A DNA stretch of 64,000 nucleotides from Micromonospora sp. RHAY321 (GTDB lineage: Bacteria > Actinomycetota > Actinomycetes > Mycobacteriales > Micromonosporaceae). The DNA is taken from the NCBI RefSeq assembly GCF_023896955.1, contig NZ_JAMHIW010000019.1, forward strand, positions 1 to 64,000, written 5' to 3'. This document shows, piece by piece, positions 36,182 through 43,533 of the stretch. A program made the position numbers and the translations under genes. How positions within the stretch are numbered: the stretch's first letter is position 1; each line of letters starts with the position of its first letter. Under the pieces are notes generated by a model, which was not told the origin of the DNA, ran no database searches, and saw only the letters and a program-made list of their open reading frames with translations.

Positions 36182-37504
36182 ATGACCGCGATCACGACAC
36201 TGCTCGTCACGTCCGTGCTGCTCCCGGGCGTCGTCACGGGCGTCGCCGCGCCGACCGCCATGACCGCCGAGGCGGTCGTTTGGACCACGGCGAACAGCGC
36301 CGCCACCGGTGACCAGGACCTGCCCGGCATCGCCATGAACCGCAACGGTCACGTCGCGGTGGTCTGGGAGGACGACCGCGACAGCACCGCTCCCGAGGAC
36401 GACACCCACAGCGAGATCTTCCTGCGCCTGTTCCGTGACGGCACCCCCGGCTACGAGCTGAAGCTCTCCGGCGGTGGCACCAGTGGGGCCGCCTGGCGCC
36501 ACGTCAGCCCCGACGTCGGCCTCGACGACCGGGGCAACGCCGTGGTGGTCTGGGCCGCCGACGGTGACGGCAACGGCGTCTACAACATCCAGTACCGGGT
36601 GGTGTCGCCGACCGGGACGGTGCTCGGGTCGGGGCAGGCCAACGCCAGCGACGCGGGGCAGCAGATCTTTCCGAAGGTCGCCGTCGACCCGGACGGCGCG
36701 CCCACCAACGCCGCCGCCGTGGGGTTCACGGTGGTCTGGGAGGACGTCCAGGGGACCGCCCCGGCCACCGTCAGGGCCGCCGGCTTCACCGCCGCCACCA
36801 CCAAGGCGTACGAGGTGACGGCCTCGCAGACCACGGGTAGCCACCACCGCCCCGACGTGGCGGTGTCCGCCGCCGGCGAGGCCCTGGTGGTCTGGGACGA
36901 GGACGCCGACGCGAACGGCTCGTACAACATCGGGTTGACCCGTCTGGCGCGGTCCACCGGCGCGGTGGTGCTGTCGCGGCGGACGGCCAACGTGCAGAGC
37001 GGCGGGCAGCAGCAACGCGCCTCGGTGGCGGCGAGCTTCGCCGGTGACTTCACGGTCGGCTGGGAGTCCGACCACACCGGTACGCGCGGCGTCTGGGCGC
37101 GCTCGTTCACCGTCACCGGCACGGCACGGCACGACGAGGTGCAGGTCTCCACCGGTACGGGAGCTACCGCGCCCGGCGTCGGTGTCGACGACCAGGACAA
37201 CGTGGTGGTGGGGTGGACGGTCGCGGGCGCCAACCCGGACGTCTGGGTGCGGGGCCTCAACCCGGACGGCACGTCCACCGGCCGGCTGGCGGCCCAGGCG
37301 TTGAGCCAGACCACGACCGGTCGGCAGGAACAGCTGGCCGTCGCCGCCTCCCCGTGGGGCGAGGTGAGTGTCTGCTACACGGACGACAACGACGGCAACT
37401 CGTTCGACCAGGTGCTCCTCGGCCTCGGGGCCACGAACTCCACCTGGCTGATGTCCGCCGACGAGCTGCGTCGCCTCAAGGCGCGGGCGGTGGCTGCGGG
37501 CTGA
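36182..37504 (+). CDS. Secreted seven-repeat propeller-like protein
   Basis: This 440-residue protein has a signal peptide (about 1-23). The rest consists of about seven repeats of the pattern PxVAVxxxGxxVVVWxxDxD (for example NAVVVWAADGDGNG, EALVVWDEDADANG and FTVGWESDHTG), with Asp-rich turns that could bind calcium. Seven such units fit a seven-bladed beta-propeller. I know no family for it. ATG 36182 has GAAGGAG in front. It follows the PhoD gene closely and may be its partner or a surface protein. It has a single cysteine near the end. Confidence 0.72.
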   Translation: MTAITTLLVTSVLLPGVVTGVAAPTAMTAEAVVWTTANSAATGDQDLPGIAMNRNGHVAVVWEDDRDSTAPEDDTHSEIFLRLFRDGTPGYELKLSGGGTSGAAWRHVSPDVGLDDRGNAVVVWAADGDGNGVYNIQYRVVSPTGTVLGSGQANASDAGQQIFPKVAVDPDGAPTNAAAVGFTVVWEDVQGTAPATVRAAGFTAATTKAYEVTASQTTGSHHRPDVAVSAAGEALVVWDEDADANGSYNIGLTRLARSTGAVVLSRRTANVQSGGQQQRASVAASFAGDFTVGWESDHTGTRGVWARSFTVTGTARHDEVQVSTGTGATAPGVGVDDQDNVVVGWTVAGANPDVWVRGLNPDGTSTGRLAAQALSQTTTGRQEQLAVAASPWGEVSVCYTDDNDGNSFDQVLLGLGATNSTWLMSADELRRLKARAVAAG

Positions 37505-37547
37505 GCCGCCCGTCGGTGCGCGTGTAGAAAACTTTCGTTGCGGCCGG

Positions 37548-37576
37548 TTGACTTCGACGATTTGTGCCACAACAAT
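37548..37576 (+). promoter_or_regulatory. Candidate promoter for the cysteine-rich protein cluster
   Basis: TTGACT (37548-37553) and AACAAT (37571-37576) are separated by 17 bp, in a stretch that is unusually AT-rich for this window (37530-37620). The ribosome-binding site of the cysteine-rich gene is about 45 bases further. Confidence 0.5.
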
Positions 37577-37631
37577 CACCGTCAATATTTACATCCGTCT
37601 CTTTCGTTCTCCTGCTCGGAAAGGAGGCACC

Positions 37632-38045
37632 ATGGCAGCTCTGCGAGGCGAGGTGTCCTGGTTCTGCTGCGGCAGCGCCTGGGGTCCCTGCGGCACAGCC
37701 GGCGGCGGCGCCTGCGGCACCTGCAGCTCAGGCAACTACCAGCACGCCTGGCCGAACACCTCGGACGCGTGCCTGGCCATCACCCGACCCGACCGGTGCG
37801 GGGTGACCGGGATGACCCGGCGCGGCTGCGGCTTCCGGCACTACACCACCAACCTGTGCAACGGCGCCCGGGTCGGCACCACGATCGCCGACTGCGGGCC
37901 GCAGACCGACCTGTTCTGCGGCGAGCGCACCTGCTGCGGCTCCGCCTGCGGCAGCAACCGGATCATCGATCTGACGCCCGCCGCGTACAGCGCGATCGCC
38001 AGTCTCTCCGCCGGGCTGCGGCCCTGCTCGGTCGACACGGTCTGA
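37632..38045 (+). CDS. Cysteine-rich double-psi beta-barrel (RlpA/expansin-like) protein
   Basis: This 137-residue protein contains 15 cysteines, including two CC pairs. It begins GEVSWFCC near the N-terminus, like the GxASWY start of RlpA and expansin domains, and ends with DCGP and RIIDLTPAAYSAI, matching the DxGP and IDLSPAA motifs of double-psi beta-barrels. So many cysteines suggest a disulfide-rich extracellular protein, yet no signal peptide is visible from ATG 37632 (AAGGAGG upstream) or from an in-frame start at 37548. Export may depend on a partner. Neighbours are a Tat-signal protein and a MauE-type membrane protein. Confidence 0.75.
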   Translation: MAALRGEVSWFCCGSAWGPCGTAGGGACGTCSSGNYQHAWPNTSDACLAITRPDRCGVTGMTRRGCGFRHYTTNLCNGARVGTTIADCGPQTDLFCGERTCCGSACGSNRIIDLTPAAYSAIASLSAGLRPCSVDTV

Positions 38046-38060
38046 ACGGAGGGTGCCACC

Positions 38061-38657
38061 ATGAACCAGACCCTGGACCGCCGGCGTCTGCTCGCCACCG
38101 CCGCGCTCGGCGGCGTGGTCGGGGCCACCGGCCTCGGCTCGCTCGCCCCCGAGGCGGCCTTCGCCGCCGAGCCCGCGACCATCGAACCCGGCGCGCCGGA
38201 CCCGAACTTCGCCGAGGGCCGGATCAGCAGGATCTCCGGCAGCATGCTGCTCGTCACGGGCTCGGACACCGTGCTGCACTCGATCCGGATCACCGACGGC
38301 ACGAGCATCTGGAAGCTGCACCCGACCACGTTCGACAAGGTGACCGTCGGCGACGGGCTCTACGCCCGCGGCGTCCGTCTGCCCGACGGCACGCTCGCCG
38401 CCGACTCCGTCTGGCTCAACATCGTCAACCTGCACGGGCACATCGCCGCCGTCGGCCGCAACGTGCTGCACCTCGACCACCAGGGCCGGCGGATCGTCGC
38501 GCACGTCGTGCCGGACCGGTCCGCCGCCGTCTACAACGGCACCCCGGCGGTCAGCGACCTATCGCTGCTCCGCGTCGGCCGGCACGTCCAGGTGCTCGGC
38601 GCCTGGCATCCGGACACCAACGAGATCGACATCGCCACCGTCTACGCCGCCGCCTAG
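38061..38657 (+). CDS. Tat-exported protein of unknown function
   Basis: This 198-residue protein has a Tat signal (LDRRRLLATAALGG, cleavage about AFA-AEP near residue 35) and a small beta-rich mature domain with SISGSMLLVTGSDTVLHSI-like strands, probably OB-fold or DUF5666-like. It has no cysteine in the mature part. GGAGGG precedes the start by 6 bases. It lies 15 bases after the cysteine-rich protein gene and before the MauE-type gene. It could be a carrier that helps export the signal-less partner, which is inference. Confidence 0.7.
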   Translation: MNQTLDRRRLLATAALGGVVGATGLGSLAPEAAFAAEPATIEPGAPDPNFAEGRISRISGSMLLVTGSDTVLHSIRITDGTSIWKLHPTTFDKVTVGDGLYARGVRLPDGTLAADSVWLNIVNLHGHIAAVGRNVLHLDHQGRRIVAHVVPDRSAAVYNGTPAVSDLSLLRVGRHVQVLGAWHPDTNEIDIATVYAAA

Positions 38658-38736
38658 CAACGGCCGCCGGGCGGCGCGACCCGCACCCACGCGTCGCCCG
38701 GAGTGTCACCCGCCGGCACACCCGAGGGGAGAAACG

Positions 38737-39603
38737 ATGATCGACGTGATCGCGGCTGTCCAGCCGCTGGTCGTGGGCGTGGTGCTGATCTGGTCCGCCC
38801 GCGTCAAGCTGGCCAGCCCGCACGCCGCAGCGGCCGCCAACCGGTCCGCACTCGTCCGGCTGCTCGGGCAGCACCGGGCGCTGCCCGCGTACCGGCTGCT
38901 GGGCGGCGTCGAGCTGACCCTCGGCGCGCTGCTCCTGCTGCCACCCGTGCTGCGCGCGGAGGCGCTGGCCGCGACGGGGCTGGCCGTGGCCTTCCTCGGC
39001 TACCTCGCGTACGCCCGCCGCGCCGCACCAACCTCCTCCTGCGGCTGCCTGAGCGCCCGGGCGACGCCGGTCTCCGGGCGCAGCCTGGCCCGGGCCGGGT
39101 TGCTCGCGGTGGCGGGCGGGCTGGCCCTGCTGGCCACCGGCGGTTGGCCGACCGCGGTGGCCGGGCACCCGGTGGCCGGCGGCGCCGTACTGGTCGTCGA
39201 GTTGGCCGCGGTGGTGGCGCTCTCCCCGGAACTGGACCAGGTCTGGCTGCTGCCGCTGCGCCGCCTGCGGGCCCGGCTGACGCATCCGCTGCGTGGCGGC
39301 TCCGGCGTACCGCTGCTCGCCACCGTGCAGCAACTCCAGCTCAGCGACGCCTACCGGAGGGTGGCACCGCTGCTCCGCTCCGACGTTCGGGAGCACTGGG
39401 ACGAGGGCGACTGGCGCTTCGTCGGGCACGCCGCGCGCTACCAGGGCCGGCTGGTGACGGCGGTGTTCGCCGTGCCGCTGGCCGACCGTGAGCCCGACCG
39501 GGTGCGGGTCGCCGTGGTCGACGACGCCACCGGGCAGACCCTGCTCAACCTCACCGGCGCACGGCCCGCCAGTGGTCCCCGGCTCTCCATTGCCCCGGTC
39601 TGA
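38737..39603 (+). CDS. MauE/DoxX-type redox membrane protein
   Basis: This 288-residue protein has four or five membrane helices in the first 155 residues and a soluble tail of about 120 residues. The helix layout and SSCGC (C102 and C104) fit MauE, the membrane protein needed to mature the disulfide-rich small subunit of methylamine dehydrogenase. No other mau genes are present. Next to a protein with 15 cysteines, it probably supplies oxidising power for disulfides. The soluble tail is not part of classical MauE, and its role is unknown. GAGGGGAG precedes the ATG. Confidence 0.75.
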   Translation: MIDVIAAVQPLVVGVVLIWSARVKLASPHAAAAANRSALVRLLGQHRALPAYRLLGGVELTLGALLLLPPVLRAEALAATGLAVAFLGYLAYARRAAPTSSCGCLSARATPVSGRSLARAGLLAVAGGLALLATGGWPTAVAGHPVAGGAVLVVELAAVVALSPELDQVWLLPLRRLRARLTHPLRGGSGVPLLATVQQLQLSDAYRRVAPLLRSDVREHWDEGDWRFVGHAARYQGRLVTAVFAVPLADREPDRVRVAVVDDATGQTLLNLTGARPASGPRLSIAPV

Positions 39604-39631
39604 AACCCACACCAGGAAGGCGAGGACCACG

Positions 39632-40801
39632 ATGAGGCACGCTCGACGATGGACCGGTGGCGCAGCCGCCGCCTTGCTGACGGTCACGAGCCTGATCGGG
39701 GCGGCGCCCAGCGCCGCCGCGCCGGCGGCCGACGCTCCCACGCTCACCGACGCGGTGACCGCCAAACTACTCGGCTCGGCCGAGGCACCCACCGCCCTCG
39801 CCGAACGGGACACCCGGGTCACCGTCAGCCGCACCGACGGCCGATGGGCGTTCGGCACCGCCGTCGCCCTCGCACCCCGGCAGGAGGACGCGCACCCCAC
39901 CGGGTCGATCTTCATCGCCCGTGCCGACCGGGCCGGGTGGCGGGTCGCCTTCGACGGCGAGGCCGCCTTCGCGGACCTGGCCGCCGAGTCACCCCTGGTG
40001 GCGGGACGGGAGAGGAGCGTGCTCACCACCACCCCGACCCCGATGTACGCGGGCGGGGACTACCGGACCGGGATGGCCCTGCCGTTCGCGGTGGGCCAGA
40101 CGTGGACGCTCACCAGCGGCCCGCACGGCTGGGGCGGGAGCGAGTCGCCGTACAGCTCGATCGACCTGGCCGGCGGCGACCAGGTGGTCCGCGCGGCACG
40201 GGCCGGCGCGGCGTACACGATGTGCCAGGGCTGGATCCGCGTCATCCACGACCGGGGCTACTCGACCGACTACTACCACCTGTGGAACAGCATCTCCGTC
40301 AACGGCGCCAGCGTCGGTCAGGGTGCCGCCCTGGGCAACACCGGCACGGACGTCACCTGCGGCGGCGCCGCCTACGGTCGGCACGTCCACTTCGGGCTGC
40401 GGCAGAACAGCGCGTACGTGCCGATCGCCGGTCACGACATCGGCAAGTGGGTGCTGGCCAACGGTGCCGCCGCGTACCAGGGTGGTGCTCGGCACGGGTC
40501 GGCCTGGGCCGGTGCGGGGGCGGGTCTGTACAACTACGGCGCGCTCGGCTTCACCCAGGCGGTGGTCGACGCGAACGGCGGTGGGGCACTGACCCGCCGC
40601 GCCGGCCCCGGGACGGGCTACGGATCGCTCGGCTCCCTGGGCGACGGCGCCACCGTCTCCGTCTCCTGTTCCGCCAACGGCACCGCACACACCGGCCGCT
40701 ACGGCACCACCGCGCTCTGGGACCGGCTGAGCGACGGCAGTTGGGTGTCCGACGCCTACCTGTGGACGGGTGTGAACGGTCCGATCAACGGCTGGTGCTG
40801 A
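39632..40801 (+). CDS. LasA-type (M23A) cell-wall peptidase with SH3 domain
   Basis: This 389-residue secreted protein has a signal peptide (1-30), a propeptide-like stretch (30-130), the M23 peptidase (about 140-275) and a C-terminal SH3b-like domain with two cysteines (320-389). The zinc site matches LasA/staphylolysin: H165 and D178 (H, 12 residues, then PYSSID), H216 (YYH), H251 and H253 (GRHVHFGL). Such enzymes cut Gly-Gly or other peptide bridges in peptidoglycan and can lyse other bacteria. It sits directly before an amidase gene carrying a similar SH3 domain. Confidence 0.87.
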   Translation: MRHARRWTGGAAAALLTVTSLIGAAPSAAAPAADAPTLTDAVTAKLLGSAEAPTALAERDTRVTVSRTDGRWAFGTAVALAPRQEDAHPTGSIFIARADRAGWRVAFDGEAAFADLAAESPLVAGRERSVLTTTPTPMYAGGDYRTGMALPFAVGQTWTLTSGPHGWGGSESPYSSIDLAGGDQVVRAARAGAAYTMCQGWIRVIHDRGYSTDYYHLWNSISVNGASVGQGAALGNTGTDVTCGGAAYGRHVHFGLRQNSAYVPIAGHDIGKWVLANGAAAYQGGARHGSAWAGAGAGLYNYGALGFTQAVVDANGGGALTRRAGPGTGYGSLGSLGDGATVSVSCSANGTAHTGRYGTTALWDRLSDGSWVSDAYLWTGVNGPINGWC

Positions 40802-40838
40802 CGCGCCGACCCGACCCCATCCATCGCAAGGAGTGGCA

Positions 40839-42227
40839 ATGACCGTACGAACCTCCCGCCGGGGTCGGCTCCTGCTCGGCGGACTGCTCACCCTGACCAC
40901 AGCCCTGGCCGGTTCCGCCGCCACGGGGTCGCCGGCGGCCGCCGCCCCGACCGGTACGCCGGCGTCGTCCGGCCCGCTGGCCGCCGCGTTCGACACCGCC
41001 GCCACGCGGTACGACGTCCCCCGCGACCTGCTGATGGCACTCGGGTACGCCGAGTCGCGCCTGGACCCGAAGGCCGGTACGCCCAGCGCGGGCGGCGGGT
41101 ACGGGATCATGCACCTGGCGAGCAACACGCAGGTGCACACCCTGGAGGAGGCGGCCGGCCTCACCCGCCTGACCCCGACCGTGCTGCGGGCCGAGCCTGC
41201 CGCGAACATCCTCGGGGCGGCCGCCGTGCTGCGCTCGTACGCCGACCAGGCCGGCCTCACCGCCGCGGCCCGTGACGACGTGAACGGCTGGTACGCACCG
41301 GTCGCCCGGTACGGCGGTGCCACCGACCCGTCGGTGGCGCGACTCTACGCGGACACCGTCTACGACCTGCTGCGCACCGGGTTCACCTCGGCGCGCGGCG
41401 AGGCGGTGGCCGCCCGACCGGTCGCGCCCCGGCGCGGCGGCCTGGAGCGGGCCGCCGTGCTCGGCGGGATCGGCACTCTCAGCACCGACTACGGGCCGGC
41501 CGCCTGGGCGCCGGCCAGCACCAGCAACTACACGGTGGCCAGCCGACCGGGCAGCCACCCCGTCAACCGCATCGTCATCCACATGACGCAGGGTTCGTAC
41601 GCCGGCTCCATCAGCTGGTTCCAGAACCCGGCGGCAAAGGTCAGCGCGCACTACACCTTCCGGTCCTCCGACGGGGCCGTCACCCAGTCGGTGCGAGAGA
41701 AGGACATCGCCCACCACGCCGGCAACTGGACCTACAACACCCAGTCGATCGGCATCGAGCACGAGGGGTACGTCGACAACCCCGCCTGGTTCACCGACGC
41801 GATGTACCGCGCCTCGGCGGCGCTCGCCCGCAGCCTCACCACCAGGTACGGCATCCCGAGGGACCGGGCGCACATCATCGGGCACGTCGAGGTGCCCGGC
41901 GCCACCCACACCGACCCGGGCCCGAACTGGAACTGGACCTACTACCTGCAACTGGTGAACGGAGTCACCGGCATCGGCTCCGGCACCGTCAACACCGAGT
42001 CGGCCAACCTCAACGTGCGGTCCGGGCCGGGCGCCAGCTACCCGATCGTCGGCTCGGTCGCCGACGGCGCCACGGTCTCCGTCTACTGCCAGGCGGTCGG
42101 GAGCACGGTCACCGGCCCGTACGGCACGACGAGCATCTGGAACCGGATCGGCACCAACCGCTACGTCTCCGACGCCTTCGTCCTGACCGGCTACGACGGG
42201 TACATCCCGAACGTGCCCCGCTGCTGA
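40839..42227 (+). CDS. N-acetylmuramoyl-L-alanine amidase with transglycosylase-like and SH3 domains
   Basis: This 462-residue secreted protein has a signal peptide (1-36), a lysozyme/transglycosylase-like N-domain (about 45-180, with MALGYAESRLDP giving E72), an amidase_2 domain (about 215-370) with zinc ligands H248 (IVIHMT), H357 and D359 (THTDPGP), and a C-terminal SH3 domain (about 385-462). AAGGAG precedes ATG 40839. The final domain resembles that of the peptidase at 39632 (ADGATVSVYC against GDGATVSVSC), so the two enzymes probably bind the same wall target. Confidence 0.88.
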   Translation: MTVRTSRRGRLLLGGLLTLTTALAGSAATGSPAAAAPTGTPASSGPLAAAFDTAATRYDVPRDLLMALGYAESRLDPKAGTPSAGGGYGIMHLASNTQVHTLEEAAGLTRLTPTVLRAEPAANILGAAAVLRSYADQAGLTAAARDDVNGWYAPVARYGGATDPSVARLYADTVYDLLRTGFTSARGEAVAARPVAPRRGGLERAAVLGGIGTLSTDYGPAAWAPASTSNYTVASRPGSHPVNRIVIHMTQGSYAGSISWFQNPAAKVSAHYTFRSSDGAVTQSVREKDIAHHAGNWTYNTQSIGIEHEGYVDNPAWFTDAMYRASAALARSLTTRYGIPRDRAHIIGHVEVPGATHTDPGPNWNWTYYLQLVNGVTGIGSGTVNTESANLNVRSGPGASYPIVGSVADGATVSVYCQAVGSTVTGPYGTTSIWNRIGTNRYVSDAFVLTGYDGYIPNVPRC

Positions 42228-42244
42228 CGGCGCGGCGGCCGTCA
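42225..42244. terminator. Short hairpin between convergent amidase and TetR genes
   Basis: TGACGGC (42225-42231) pairs with GCCGTCA (42238-42244). Each arm contains the stop codon of one of the two convergent genes, which are only 14 bases apart. Confidence 0.45.
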
Positions 42245-42814
42245 ACCGAAGAGCAGGTCGAGGTGGGCATCCAGCGCCGCCAAGGCCTGCTCGGCGGTGT
42301 ACTGCCCGCCCAGCAGATAGATGCCGAGCCCTTCCATGAGCGCCAGCAGCCCGGCCGCGGCCGCGGCGGCGTCGGCGTGTCGAGCGGGCAGGGCGCTGGC
42401 GACGAACTCGGTCAGCTGCGTGGTGTCCGCGCGCAGGCTGGAAGCGGCCGCCGGCCGCACCGCGGTGTAGGCGAAATACGCCAGCGCCACCCGCCCGTCG
42501 TCGCGGGTCCCCTCGTCCAGCGGCAACAGCGCGGCGATCATCGTGCGCAGCAGGAGCCGGGGGGAGGGGTCCGCGCCCAGCCGCGCCATCGCCTCGGTGA
42601 CCCGGATCTGACCGCGCTCGCGGACCACCGCCAACGCGAACGCCATCATCTCGTCCTTGGTGCGGAAGTAGTGCTGCACCATCCCGGCGGACACGCCGGC
42701 CTCGGCAGCCACGTGACGGAGGCTGACAGCCTCCAGGCCCTGGTCCGCGGCGACCCGCATCAACGCGTCCGCGATGAGGGTGCGCCGCTCCTGGTGATCG
42801 ACCTTCTTGGGCAT
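42242..42814 (-). CDS. TetR/AcrR-family regulator
   Basis: This 190-residue protein has a TetR helix-turn-helix at the N-terminus (VSLRHVAAEAGVSAGMVQHYFRTKDEM) and a helical ligand domain with ILLPLDEGTRDDGRVALAYFAY-like features of the BetI/TetR_C_6 group. It lies last in a minus-strand run behind the Rph-like enzyme and a membrane protein, with gaps of 43 and 53 bases. It is therefore the natural candidate to bind the 22-bp palindrome at 45999. Confidence 0.85.
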   Translation of the reverse strand: MPKKVDHQERRTLIADALMRVAADQGLEAVSLRHVAAEAGVSAGMVQHYFRTKDEMMAFALAVVRERGQIRVTEAMARLGADPSPRLLLRTMIAALLPLDEGTRDDGRVALAYFAYTAVRPAAASSLRADTTQLTEFVASALPARHADAAAAAAGLLALMEGLGIYLLGGQYTAEQALAALDAHLDLLFG

Positions 42815-42867
42815 GACCTCGATCGTTTCACAGTGGGTGGCCCGGACAGTCCGCCGACGGGCGGCGG

Positions 42868-43533
42868 TTACCGGCTGACGGTTCCGGGCGCGGGAGTGCC
42901 CCGCGCGCTGCGCAGGAGGCCGTCGGGGTCGTCCGCGTACAGCCGCAGCTCGTCCACCGGCTCGGACCGGCCCTTCGGCAGGTCGAAGGTCGTCGGCCGG
43001 CGCAGCAGGACGTCGATGCTCGTCTGGCTGCCGACCGAGAGGTGCAGCACCCGGCGCTCGCCCTCCTGCTCGACCTGCACCGTCTTACTGGACGGCAGCG
43101 AGCGGTAACGCTTGCGGAGGGCCTCGATGTCCGTCCACGGAATCCAGATGTCGATGCCCGAACTCACGCGGACCCGCAGGCCCCTGTCACCGACGAGGTG
43201 CGGGTGGATCTGCATGCTCGCGTAGAGACCGGCCATCCAGAGCAGACCCCAGACGCCGAGGGCGAGCACGATCCAGCGGGCCGGGCCCCACGGCACCACG
43301 TGGGTGACGATCAGGTCGAAGATCGGAATCTCCACGACCGACAGGCCGATGAAGATGCCGAGGATCGGCTTGACCACGCCCAGGTAGCCGAACGGTTCGT
43401 CGCCCGGCGCCAAGGGCAGTGGCTTGCGCCGCGCCCACACGTACAGGCTGCGCCACATCGCGGCCTCCATCTCGGCCACCCGGCGCAGCAGCGGGCCCAC
43501 CTTCACCCCGGTCGGGGCCTTCACGTCGGTCAT
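42868..43533 (-). CDS. Membrane protein with PH-like soluble domain, unknown function
   Basis: This 221-residue protein has an N-terminal helical segment, two membrane helices (about 53-75 and 82-105) and a cytosolic beta-rich C-terminal half (about 115-215: GDRGLRVRVSSGIDIWIPW and KTVQVEQEGERRVLHLSVG). It resembles membrane proteins with a bacterial PH-like domain. GAGGA precedes the start. It probably shares an operon with the Rph-like gene and TetR. Confidence 0.72.
   Translation of the reverse strand: MTDVKAPTGVKVGPLLRRVAEMEAAMWRSLYVWARRKPLPLAPGDEPFGYLGVVKPILGIFIGLSVVEIPIFDLIVTHVVPWGPARWIVLALGVWGLLWMAGLYASMQIHPHLVGDRGLRVRVSSGIDIWIPWTDIEALRKRYRSLPSSKTVQVEQEGERRVLHLSVGSQTSIDVLLRRPTTFDLPKGRSEPVDELRLYADDPDGLLRSARGTPAPGTVSR

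Follow-up and report, generated by a model that had tools for sequence, protein, structure and literature searches.

The tyrosinase of Streptomyces, MelC2, is made without a signal peptide and leaves the cell by hitchhiking with MelC1 (as outlined in PMC2758597), and the gamma subunit of a flavin adenine dinucleotide (FAD) glucose dehydrogenase of Burkholderia, which bears a signal for the twin-arginine translocation (Tat) pathway, acts as carrier for a partner that relies on it to be secreted (as outlined in PMC6719666). In E. coli engineered with CyDisCo, disulfides are formed in the cytosol and the folded protein is then exported by Tat (as outlined in PMC6350376), and mauE genes beside Cys-rich precursors have been noted by others in Streptomyces (as outlined in PMC7794033). 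Here we describe a trio of genes, A, B, and C, in a 64,000-nucleotide stretch of DNA from Micromonospora sp. RHAY321 (contig NZ_JAMHIW010000019.1, positions 1 to 64,000 of the forward strand; hereafter, the window). The trio, which occurs in many soil actinobacteria, is built from known kinds of parts and is apparently undescribed; no description of it was found in the open-licence PMC papers searched.

The three genes are real and adjacent and lie head to tail on the + strand at 37632-39603. The first-pass annotation of the window had listed a 137-residue protein that has 15 cysteines but lacks a signal peptide, followed by a Tat-signal protein and a MauE-type protein with the motif SSCGC, and all of these are present:

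37632..38045, + strand: gene A, 137 aa, 15 Cys, signal-less, double-psi-barrel-like; presumed cargo
38061..38657, + strand: gene B, 198-aa Tat-signal protein, DUF5666-like, no Cys; presumed carrier
38079..38084, + strand: twin-arginine codons R7-R8 of B; RR in 41/41
38737..39603, + strand: gene C, 288-aa MauE-family membrane protein, five helices and a soluble C-terminal domain; presumed thiol oxidase
39040..39048, + strand: CGC codons (C102-G103-C104) of C; invariant in 41/41 and in 46 alignment rows
39313-39552, + strand: C tail domain, residues 193-272; conserved, after the fifth helix

A-B-C is a self-standing three-gene module, and its linkage is far beyond chance. Among 300 genomes of the family, 65 gave a strong match to A (67 when weaker matches are included), and a search of the genus found A in 12 of 81 genomes. 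Co-occurrence across genomes was the test by which the first-pass annotation had offered to be refuted, and the proposal survived it: in profile searches of the same 300 genomes, with C counted at E<=1e-20, every one of the 65 genomes with a strong match to A had B and C as well. Weak matches to A (G152 and G295) and to B (G051, G047, G093, and G210) were left uncounted. B occurred without A in one genome and C without A in three, with no credible A at those loci; all were remnants, consisting of C plus part of B (G194), a truncated C (G322), and a C fragment with a stop (G285). We regard these strays as decayed operons. The A-B-C order and strand were kept in all 40 loci drawn from the 65 genomes, and the full trio, with the same order and strand, was found in 79 of the 80 loci of a species-level set, the remaining locus (L114) ending at a contig edge. 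This second set, which overlaps the first, was obtained by scanning a single genome of each species, which yielded 196 A relatives, 80 of which were kept and examined; by their titles, the records belong to Micromonosporaceae genera, Kribbella, Nonomuraea, Streptosporangium, Sphaerisporangium, and Thermoactinospora, with one labelled Streptomyces sp. SID13031. To look for a fourth conserved gene, we compared frames of 120 aa or more lying between -5 and +6 kb at 29 loci of the 80, which carry 13 genus labels; none emerged, as nothing besides the trio and its shadow frames recurred in more than 2 of these labels. In samples of the phylum, A was found only in its own genome (1/396), as was C (1/198 at E<=1e-20), and the module is therefore restricted. 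PADLOC and PHROG gave no match for A, B, or C at E<=0.1 and hence no link to defence or phage.

Distances among the A, B, and C proteins are also correlated, with Mantel r values of 0.79, 0.78, and 0.90 (98 distinct sets) that were reached in none of 300 permutations, and of 0.80-0.89 when all 114 rows were used. The test drew on 119 sets (79 from the species scan, from which L125 was absent because it had been assigned no start, plus the 40 loci), with L075 (frameshifted B), L122 (wrong start), L114 (no C), and L076 and L107 (C cut by the contig end) excluded; the 114 rows contain 98 distinct trio sets and 96 distinct A sequences. The most conserved of the three is A, with a mean identity between Micromonosporaceae and Streptosporangiaceae of 0.71, compared with 0.57 for B and 0.47 for C.

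Translation of A is likely to start at the ATG at 37632, with a ribosome site (AAGGAGG) at 37621-37627; a TTG at 37548, which opens a longer frame, was rejected as the start because it belongs to a promoter-like site as its -35 hexamer. We found no signal peptide on the window protein and saw none in its relatives, and A thus lacks the export signal of its own that the secreted barrels RlpA and expansin have. A longer N terminus was ruled out in 19 of 79 loci, where a stop codon lies no more than 11 codons upstream of the chosen start, the choice of start having favored the expected one. The N termini of A are short, and those of the Streptosporangiaceae proteins are extended by a polar stretch only. 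Twelve cysteines are kept in all 96 distinct A sequences, and C132 is variable (64/96). C12 and C20 are absent together, in L032 only, and C38 and C80 have been gained together, in L033 and L034 alone; the loss and gain of cysteines in pairs fits the presence of disulfides in A.

The fold of A is less certain. The DPBB_1 family (PF03330) matches the window protein at 18.9 bits (E=0.0019), below the cut-off of 28.8, and matches 47/47 A relatives at E<=1, the best at 3e-7 (the model alignments used chosen rows, 47 for A and 46 for C). The structure prediction that the first-pass annotation had called for delivered in part: a Foldseek search returned double-psi barrels and their relatives as the top matches, with barrels at an E value of 9e-4 (the fungal loosenin PcaLOOL12, a Clavibacter expansin, kiwellin, and PA4485), with a Streptomyces papain inhibitor also among the matches, from a model that is itself poor, with a mean predicted local distance difference test (pLDDT) score of 59.1. 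VIA-align superimposed the model on PA4485 with a Z score of 8.3 over 93 residues at a root mean square deviation of 2.8, leaving 44 of the 137 residues unaligned. Because a Z score near 8 can reflect a common arrangement, we call A only barrel-like. When the A profile was compared with the sequences of solved structures, loosenin came first (E=0.037), and an invariant aspartate, D87 in the A motif DCGP, may resemble the catalytic Asp of expansins. The Me-amine-dh_L model did not match A.

The twin arginines of B are invariant (41/41) and precede a hydrophobic stretch, the latter judged by eye. The pattern RR-x-[LFVMI] is present in B of 79/80 species-scan loci, the exception being the frameshifted L075, and four Streptosporangiaceae proteins have the motifs SRRQMLK, SRRQLLK (twice), and TRRQMLK. 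B is free of cysteine in 40/41 members; in the species-scan set there is none in 49/80 and one in 31/80. The match of B to DUF5666 (PF18914), a family of unassigned function, scores 19.2 bits, below the cut-off of 27, and this family matches 18/21 B members at E<=1, the best at 2.6e-6. In Micromonospora globbae, gene B is split by a frameshift (L075; the same break is seen in L168:3818-4425), which is either an error or decay.

C matches the MauE family (PF07291) at 57.2 bits, above the cut-off of 27, over residues 4-132, and the family matches 46/46 members of the C alignment at E<=1. The CxC of MauE proteins is represented in C by the invariant CGC, part of SSCGC at residues 100-104, and C is presumed from its sequence to be a thiol oxidase. 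For companion methylamine dehydrogenase genes, PF02975 had no match in the window's own genome, and control genomes likewise gave none. In an AlphaFold2 model of C (mean pLDDT 88.7), helices span residues 2-26, 45-67, 73-96, 114-131, and 145-161, and the fifth of these is followed by a further helix (164-182) and by a tail domain of alpha/beta type (~193-272). No solved structure matched the whole C model at E<=0.001, the tail domain not having been searched alone, and no Pfam family was over its cut-off for the tail domain. As two helices separate the CGC loop from the tail, both should lie on the same side of the membrane. Among 103 distinct orthologues, mean Lys+Arg counts were 6.97 in loop 1, 4.34 in loop 3 (which holds CGC), and 5.01 after helix 5, and they were 0.00 at the N terminus, 0.42 in loop 2, and 0.68 in loop 4 on the other side; the values were nearly identical on all 118 rows. 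Positively charged loops face the cytosol (the positive-inside rule), and this pattern would therefore put both CGC and the tail domain on the cytosolic side; on the model and the charges together, we lean toward a CGC that faces inward.

To set C beside other members of its family, we used 30 control MauE loci, none of them from the mau cluster of a methylamine user; three without CxC (L181, L185, and L189) were dropped for the charge comparison, leaving 27. A Cys-rich neighbor on the same strand was found in 6 of the 30, the check covering the MauE strand only, over ~1.5 kb on each side. Tat-like neighbors with 10 cysteines occur at L179:2522-3043, L182:236-781, and L195:275-808, and L191 has near its start a Tat-like neighbor with 12 cysteines whose start is uncertain; the others are a 59-aa peptide with 8 cysteines in L175 and a protein with 15 cysteines in L183. 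Pfam gave no match at E<=0.1 for the Cys-rich neighbors in L179, L182, L195, and L183, and by sequence the L179, L182, and L195 proteins resemble members of a so far uncharacterised family of Cys-rich Tat proteins that is paired with MauE. The 27 controls were split into 8 "canonical" and 19 "other" proteins after the charges had been seen, and so the comparison is descriptive only: by this post hoc split, the mean Lys/Arg count of the CxC loop was 0.9 in the canonical MauEs and 4.5 in the others. Four hydropathy peaks were seen in seven of the 8 canonical proteins (L169 having three) and in six of the 19 others (L170, L178, L179, L187, L192, and L197). Cys-rich neighbors were found for 6/19 others and 0/8 canonical proteins, a post hoc difference that is not significant (p 0.14). 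Some MauE relatives may serve a single dedicated Cys-rich client, which at certain loci bears a Tat signal itself; in the trio, the signal is on the partner. At L201:4141-8412 (NZ_CP109164.1, Streptomyces sp. NBC_01727), genes for a redoxin, a 59-aa hypothetical protein, a MauE/DoxX protein, TlpA, an ABC (ATP-binding cassette) transporter, and an S26 peptidase stand in a row that is related to L175 with its 8-Cys 59-aa peptide and has the look of a bacteriocin-type cluster. As a side observation, the record NZ_LT559118.1 of Nonomuraea gerenzanensis (11.85 Mb) is filed as a plasmid and by its size looks like a chromosome.

Because they stay together in 65 of 65 genomes, we read the three proteins as cargo (Cys-rich and signal-less), carrier (with a Tat signal), and maturase (resembling a thiol oxidase), and on balance the trio is probably a dedicated maturation-and-export unit. 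The binding of A by B, the export of A through Tat, its oxidation by C, the side on which this happens, and the target of A are all steps that we infer from sequence. A would be a small double-psi-barrel protein with some seven disulfides, and C would be a MauE-type membrane thiol oxidase whose CGC forms or starts these disulfides, passing the electrons to the membrane. B would bind folded A in the cytosol and take it through Tat by means of its own signal, in the manner of MelC1 and MelC2. Oxidation of A is placed on the cytosolic face, before export, because Tat takes folded cargo and because the charge pattern places CGC inside; we consider this order slightly more likely than the reverse. 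Tat export of a single-chain variable fragment cargo failed without cytoplasmic disulfide formation by CyDisCo (as outlined in PMC6708511). Outside the cell, A may act on wall or soil polysaccharide, like expansin-, loosenin-, or RlpA-like barrels. The whole of the more specific proposal, a natural system that oxidises inside and exports folded, with a cytosol-facing MauE oxidase, about seven disulfides, and a dedicated Tat carrier, is a possibility worth stating that we would nonetheless not expect to hold in every part.

Several observations weigh against this reading. The argument from paired cysteines consists of two events only; L033 and L034 have gained a third cysteine, in the N-terminal extension of A, and C6 has been gained singly in L032, L035, and L036. 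The AlphaFold2 model of A is the best of five that score only 29.4-59.1, and B reaches 16.4 bits against the Tat model TIGR01409, just under its cut-off of 16.7. As to the orientation of C, an Arg 10-22 residues past CxC is also present in 26/27 control MauE relatives, and the charge of loop 3 may therefore be partly structural; loop 3 holds 1.12 Lys+Arg when only residues outside the model helices are counted; and the same charge pattern is seen in other five-helix MauE relatives. Unlike a MauE gene that lies beside a DsbA-like gene elsewhere in the genome, the trio contains no thioredoxin-like gene. Finally, secretion of the Burkholderia glucose dehydrogenase did not need disulfides (as outlined in PMC6719666), and so export by a carrier need not depend on oxidation.

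The same components could work in the opposite order, with B carrying reduced A out via Tat and an outward-facing CGC oxidising it there, the order presumed for methylamine dehydrogenase, which we regard as unlikely though it deserves serious weighing. MauE has been speculated to form disulfides in the beta subunit of methylamine dehydrogenase (as outlined in PMC7794033), oxidative folding by actinobacterial VKOR and MdbA takes place outside the membrane (as outlined in PMC5478893), and the MauE beside the DsbA-like gene (L158, contig C4 of the same genome) has a charge pattern of 3-2-1-1-1 that fits a CGC on the outside. The charge pattern of the 103 distinct C orthologues points the opposite way, with the confounding caveats given above, and 14 cysteines would have to stay reduced while A was folded enough for Tat. 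Part of the small export-and-oxidation module proposed in the first-pass annotation is upheld, namely, a self-standing trio, conserved cysteines, a signal-less A with a Tat partner, and an invariant CGC. The order of events that it had assumed, oxidation by MauE after export, has become doubtful, since the charge pattern and five-helix model of C lean CGC to the cytosol and make oxidation before export at least as likely.

An inward-facing CGC would also suit a protein A that never leaves the cell, a cytosolic thiol- or metal-binding protein whose redox state is set by C, with B exported for a separate, linked job. Clustered cysteines can also bind metal, and those of A, which has no signal peptide, are possible metal ligands. 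We find this distinctly improbable, since the paired loss and gain of cysteines (two cases) and a fold resembling secreted barrels fit disulfides, and the strict linkage to a Tat protein would be left without explanation. Finally, there is only a very slight chance that A is the precursor of a RiPP (a ribosomally synthesized and posttranslationally modified peptide) or something like it, modified by C, as has been suggested for Streptomyces clusters of mauE with Cys-rich precursors. Three decRiPPter families combine mauE with precursors of at least 8 cysteines (as outlined in PMC7794033), the 8-Cys peptide of L175 has a MauE gene and a pair of redoxin-type genes as neighbors, and a similar arrangement on a Streptomyces plasmid includes genes for an ABC transporter and for a peptidase of the S26 type. 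A, however, has 137 residues that are conserved over the full length and match a barrel family in 47/47 relatives, and the trio has no further recurring gene.

Upstream of A, the promoter region is conserved and includes a promoter-like site for the trio itself:

37524..37536, + strand: box GTAGAAAACTTTC, 11 bases before the -35 hexamer
37548..37576, + strand: promoter-like site TTGACT-N17-AACAAT; 1 found, shuffles mean 0.0

TTGAC was identical in 16/16 aligned upstream regions. The box is of the GAAA-N2-TTTC type, a pattern that was written after the sequences had been seen, and it was found within 230 bases upstream of A in 61/79 loci, compared with 48/3160 random windows of the same loci (1.5%) and 20/1580 shuffled upstream regions. 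It occurs in Micromonosporaceae, Kribbella (12/15), and Nonomuraea (20/20); by this pattern, it was found in none of the 3 Hamadaea and 4 Sphaerisporangium loci and in 1 of 4 Streptosporangium loci. The box and TTGAC occurred together in 26/79 loci, in Micromonosporaceae genera only, compared with 11/2370 random windows. Across the genome, sites with at most one mismatch to the box number 18, versus 10 for a reversed control, and the adjoining genes are mixed. A second exact GTAGAAAACTTTC site in the genome (L203) lies ~30 bases before a gene for a small protein with a signal-like start. No known RNA element was over threshold in 37000-43000.

On the 3' side, the trio is followed by genes for an M23 peptidase and then a transglycosylase/amidase protein. 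The earlier statement that the trio leads into two wall hydrolases is therefore true at this locus, but they are not members of the unit: relatives of these hydrolases were near the trio in 6/40 loci only, and downstream on the same strand in 4/40. The SH3-like ends of the two hydrolases (39632-42227) partly match the model of the sporangiospore hydrolase GsmA (41.2 and 56.1 bits; cut-off, 240).

If the proposed reading is right, the trio is a compact unit for forming many disulfides and exporting the product by Tat, a combination that biotechnology has built artificially; it would be the natural counterpart of the engineered CyDisCo-Tat system and would define a cytosol-facing branch of the MauE family. 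Five-helix MauE proteins would gain a defined substrate, by which their membrane orientation becomes testable, and the known cargoes of Tat partners would come to include a disulfide-rich protein. The complete linkage and the visible decay in the three strays make the genetics straightforward and uncommonly clean, and the question of topology is a sharp one, although every functional step is a proposal drawn from the sequences.

Compared with the systems described, the trio resembles each in part. MelC1 and MelC2 are likewise an actinobacterial two-gene core of a signal-less cargo and a small Tat-signal helper needed for its secretion (as outlined in PMC2758597), and A and B, too, are a signal-less protein and a Tat-signal partner encoded together; B is likened to MelC1 by gene layout and not by sequence. 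As far as the MelC account goes, its cargo differs in being a copper oxidase and not a Cys-rich barrel, the helper gene comes first, and the pair has no membrane redox gene. The Burkholderia glucose dehydrogenase shares with B the small Tat-signal subunit as carrier (PMC6719666, in outline), but its cargo is an FAD and iron-sulfur enzyme that, as reported there, has no need of disulfides for secretion. Like the proteins of methylamine dehydrogenase maturation, C belongs to the MauE family, has CxC, and adjoins a Cys-rich protein, but it has a fifth helix and a soluble tail beyond the Pfam match, and the trio is without a MauD-like or mau enzyme gene. The expansin, loosenin, and RlpA group of barrels provides the best fold matches of A, from a low-confidence model, whereas A has no signal peptide and has 14 conserved cysteines. 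The decRiPPter mauE families of Streptomyces similarly cluster mauE with a Cys-rich predicted precursor (as outlined in PMC7794033), although, compared by description only, theirs are predicted RiPP precursors, and the exporter of the example locus is an ABC transporter and not Tat. CyDisCo-Tat is engineered, uses soluble yeast and human enzymes (PMC6708511, in outline), and has the signal on the cargo itself, but it follows the order that we propose for the trio, disulfides in the cytosol and then export by Tat (PMC6350376, in outline).

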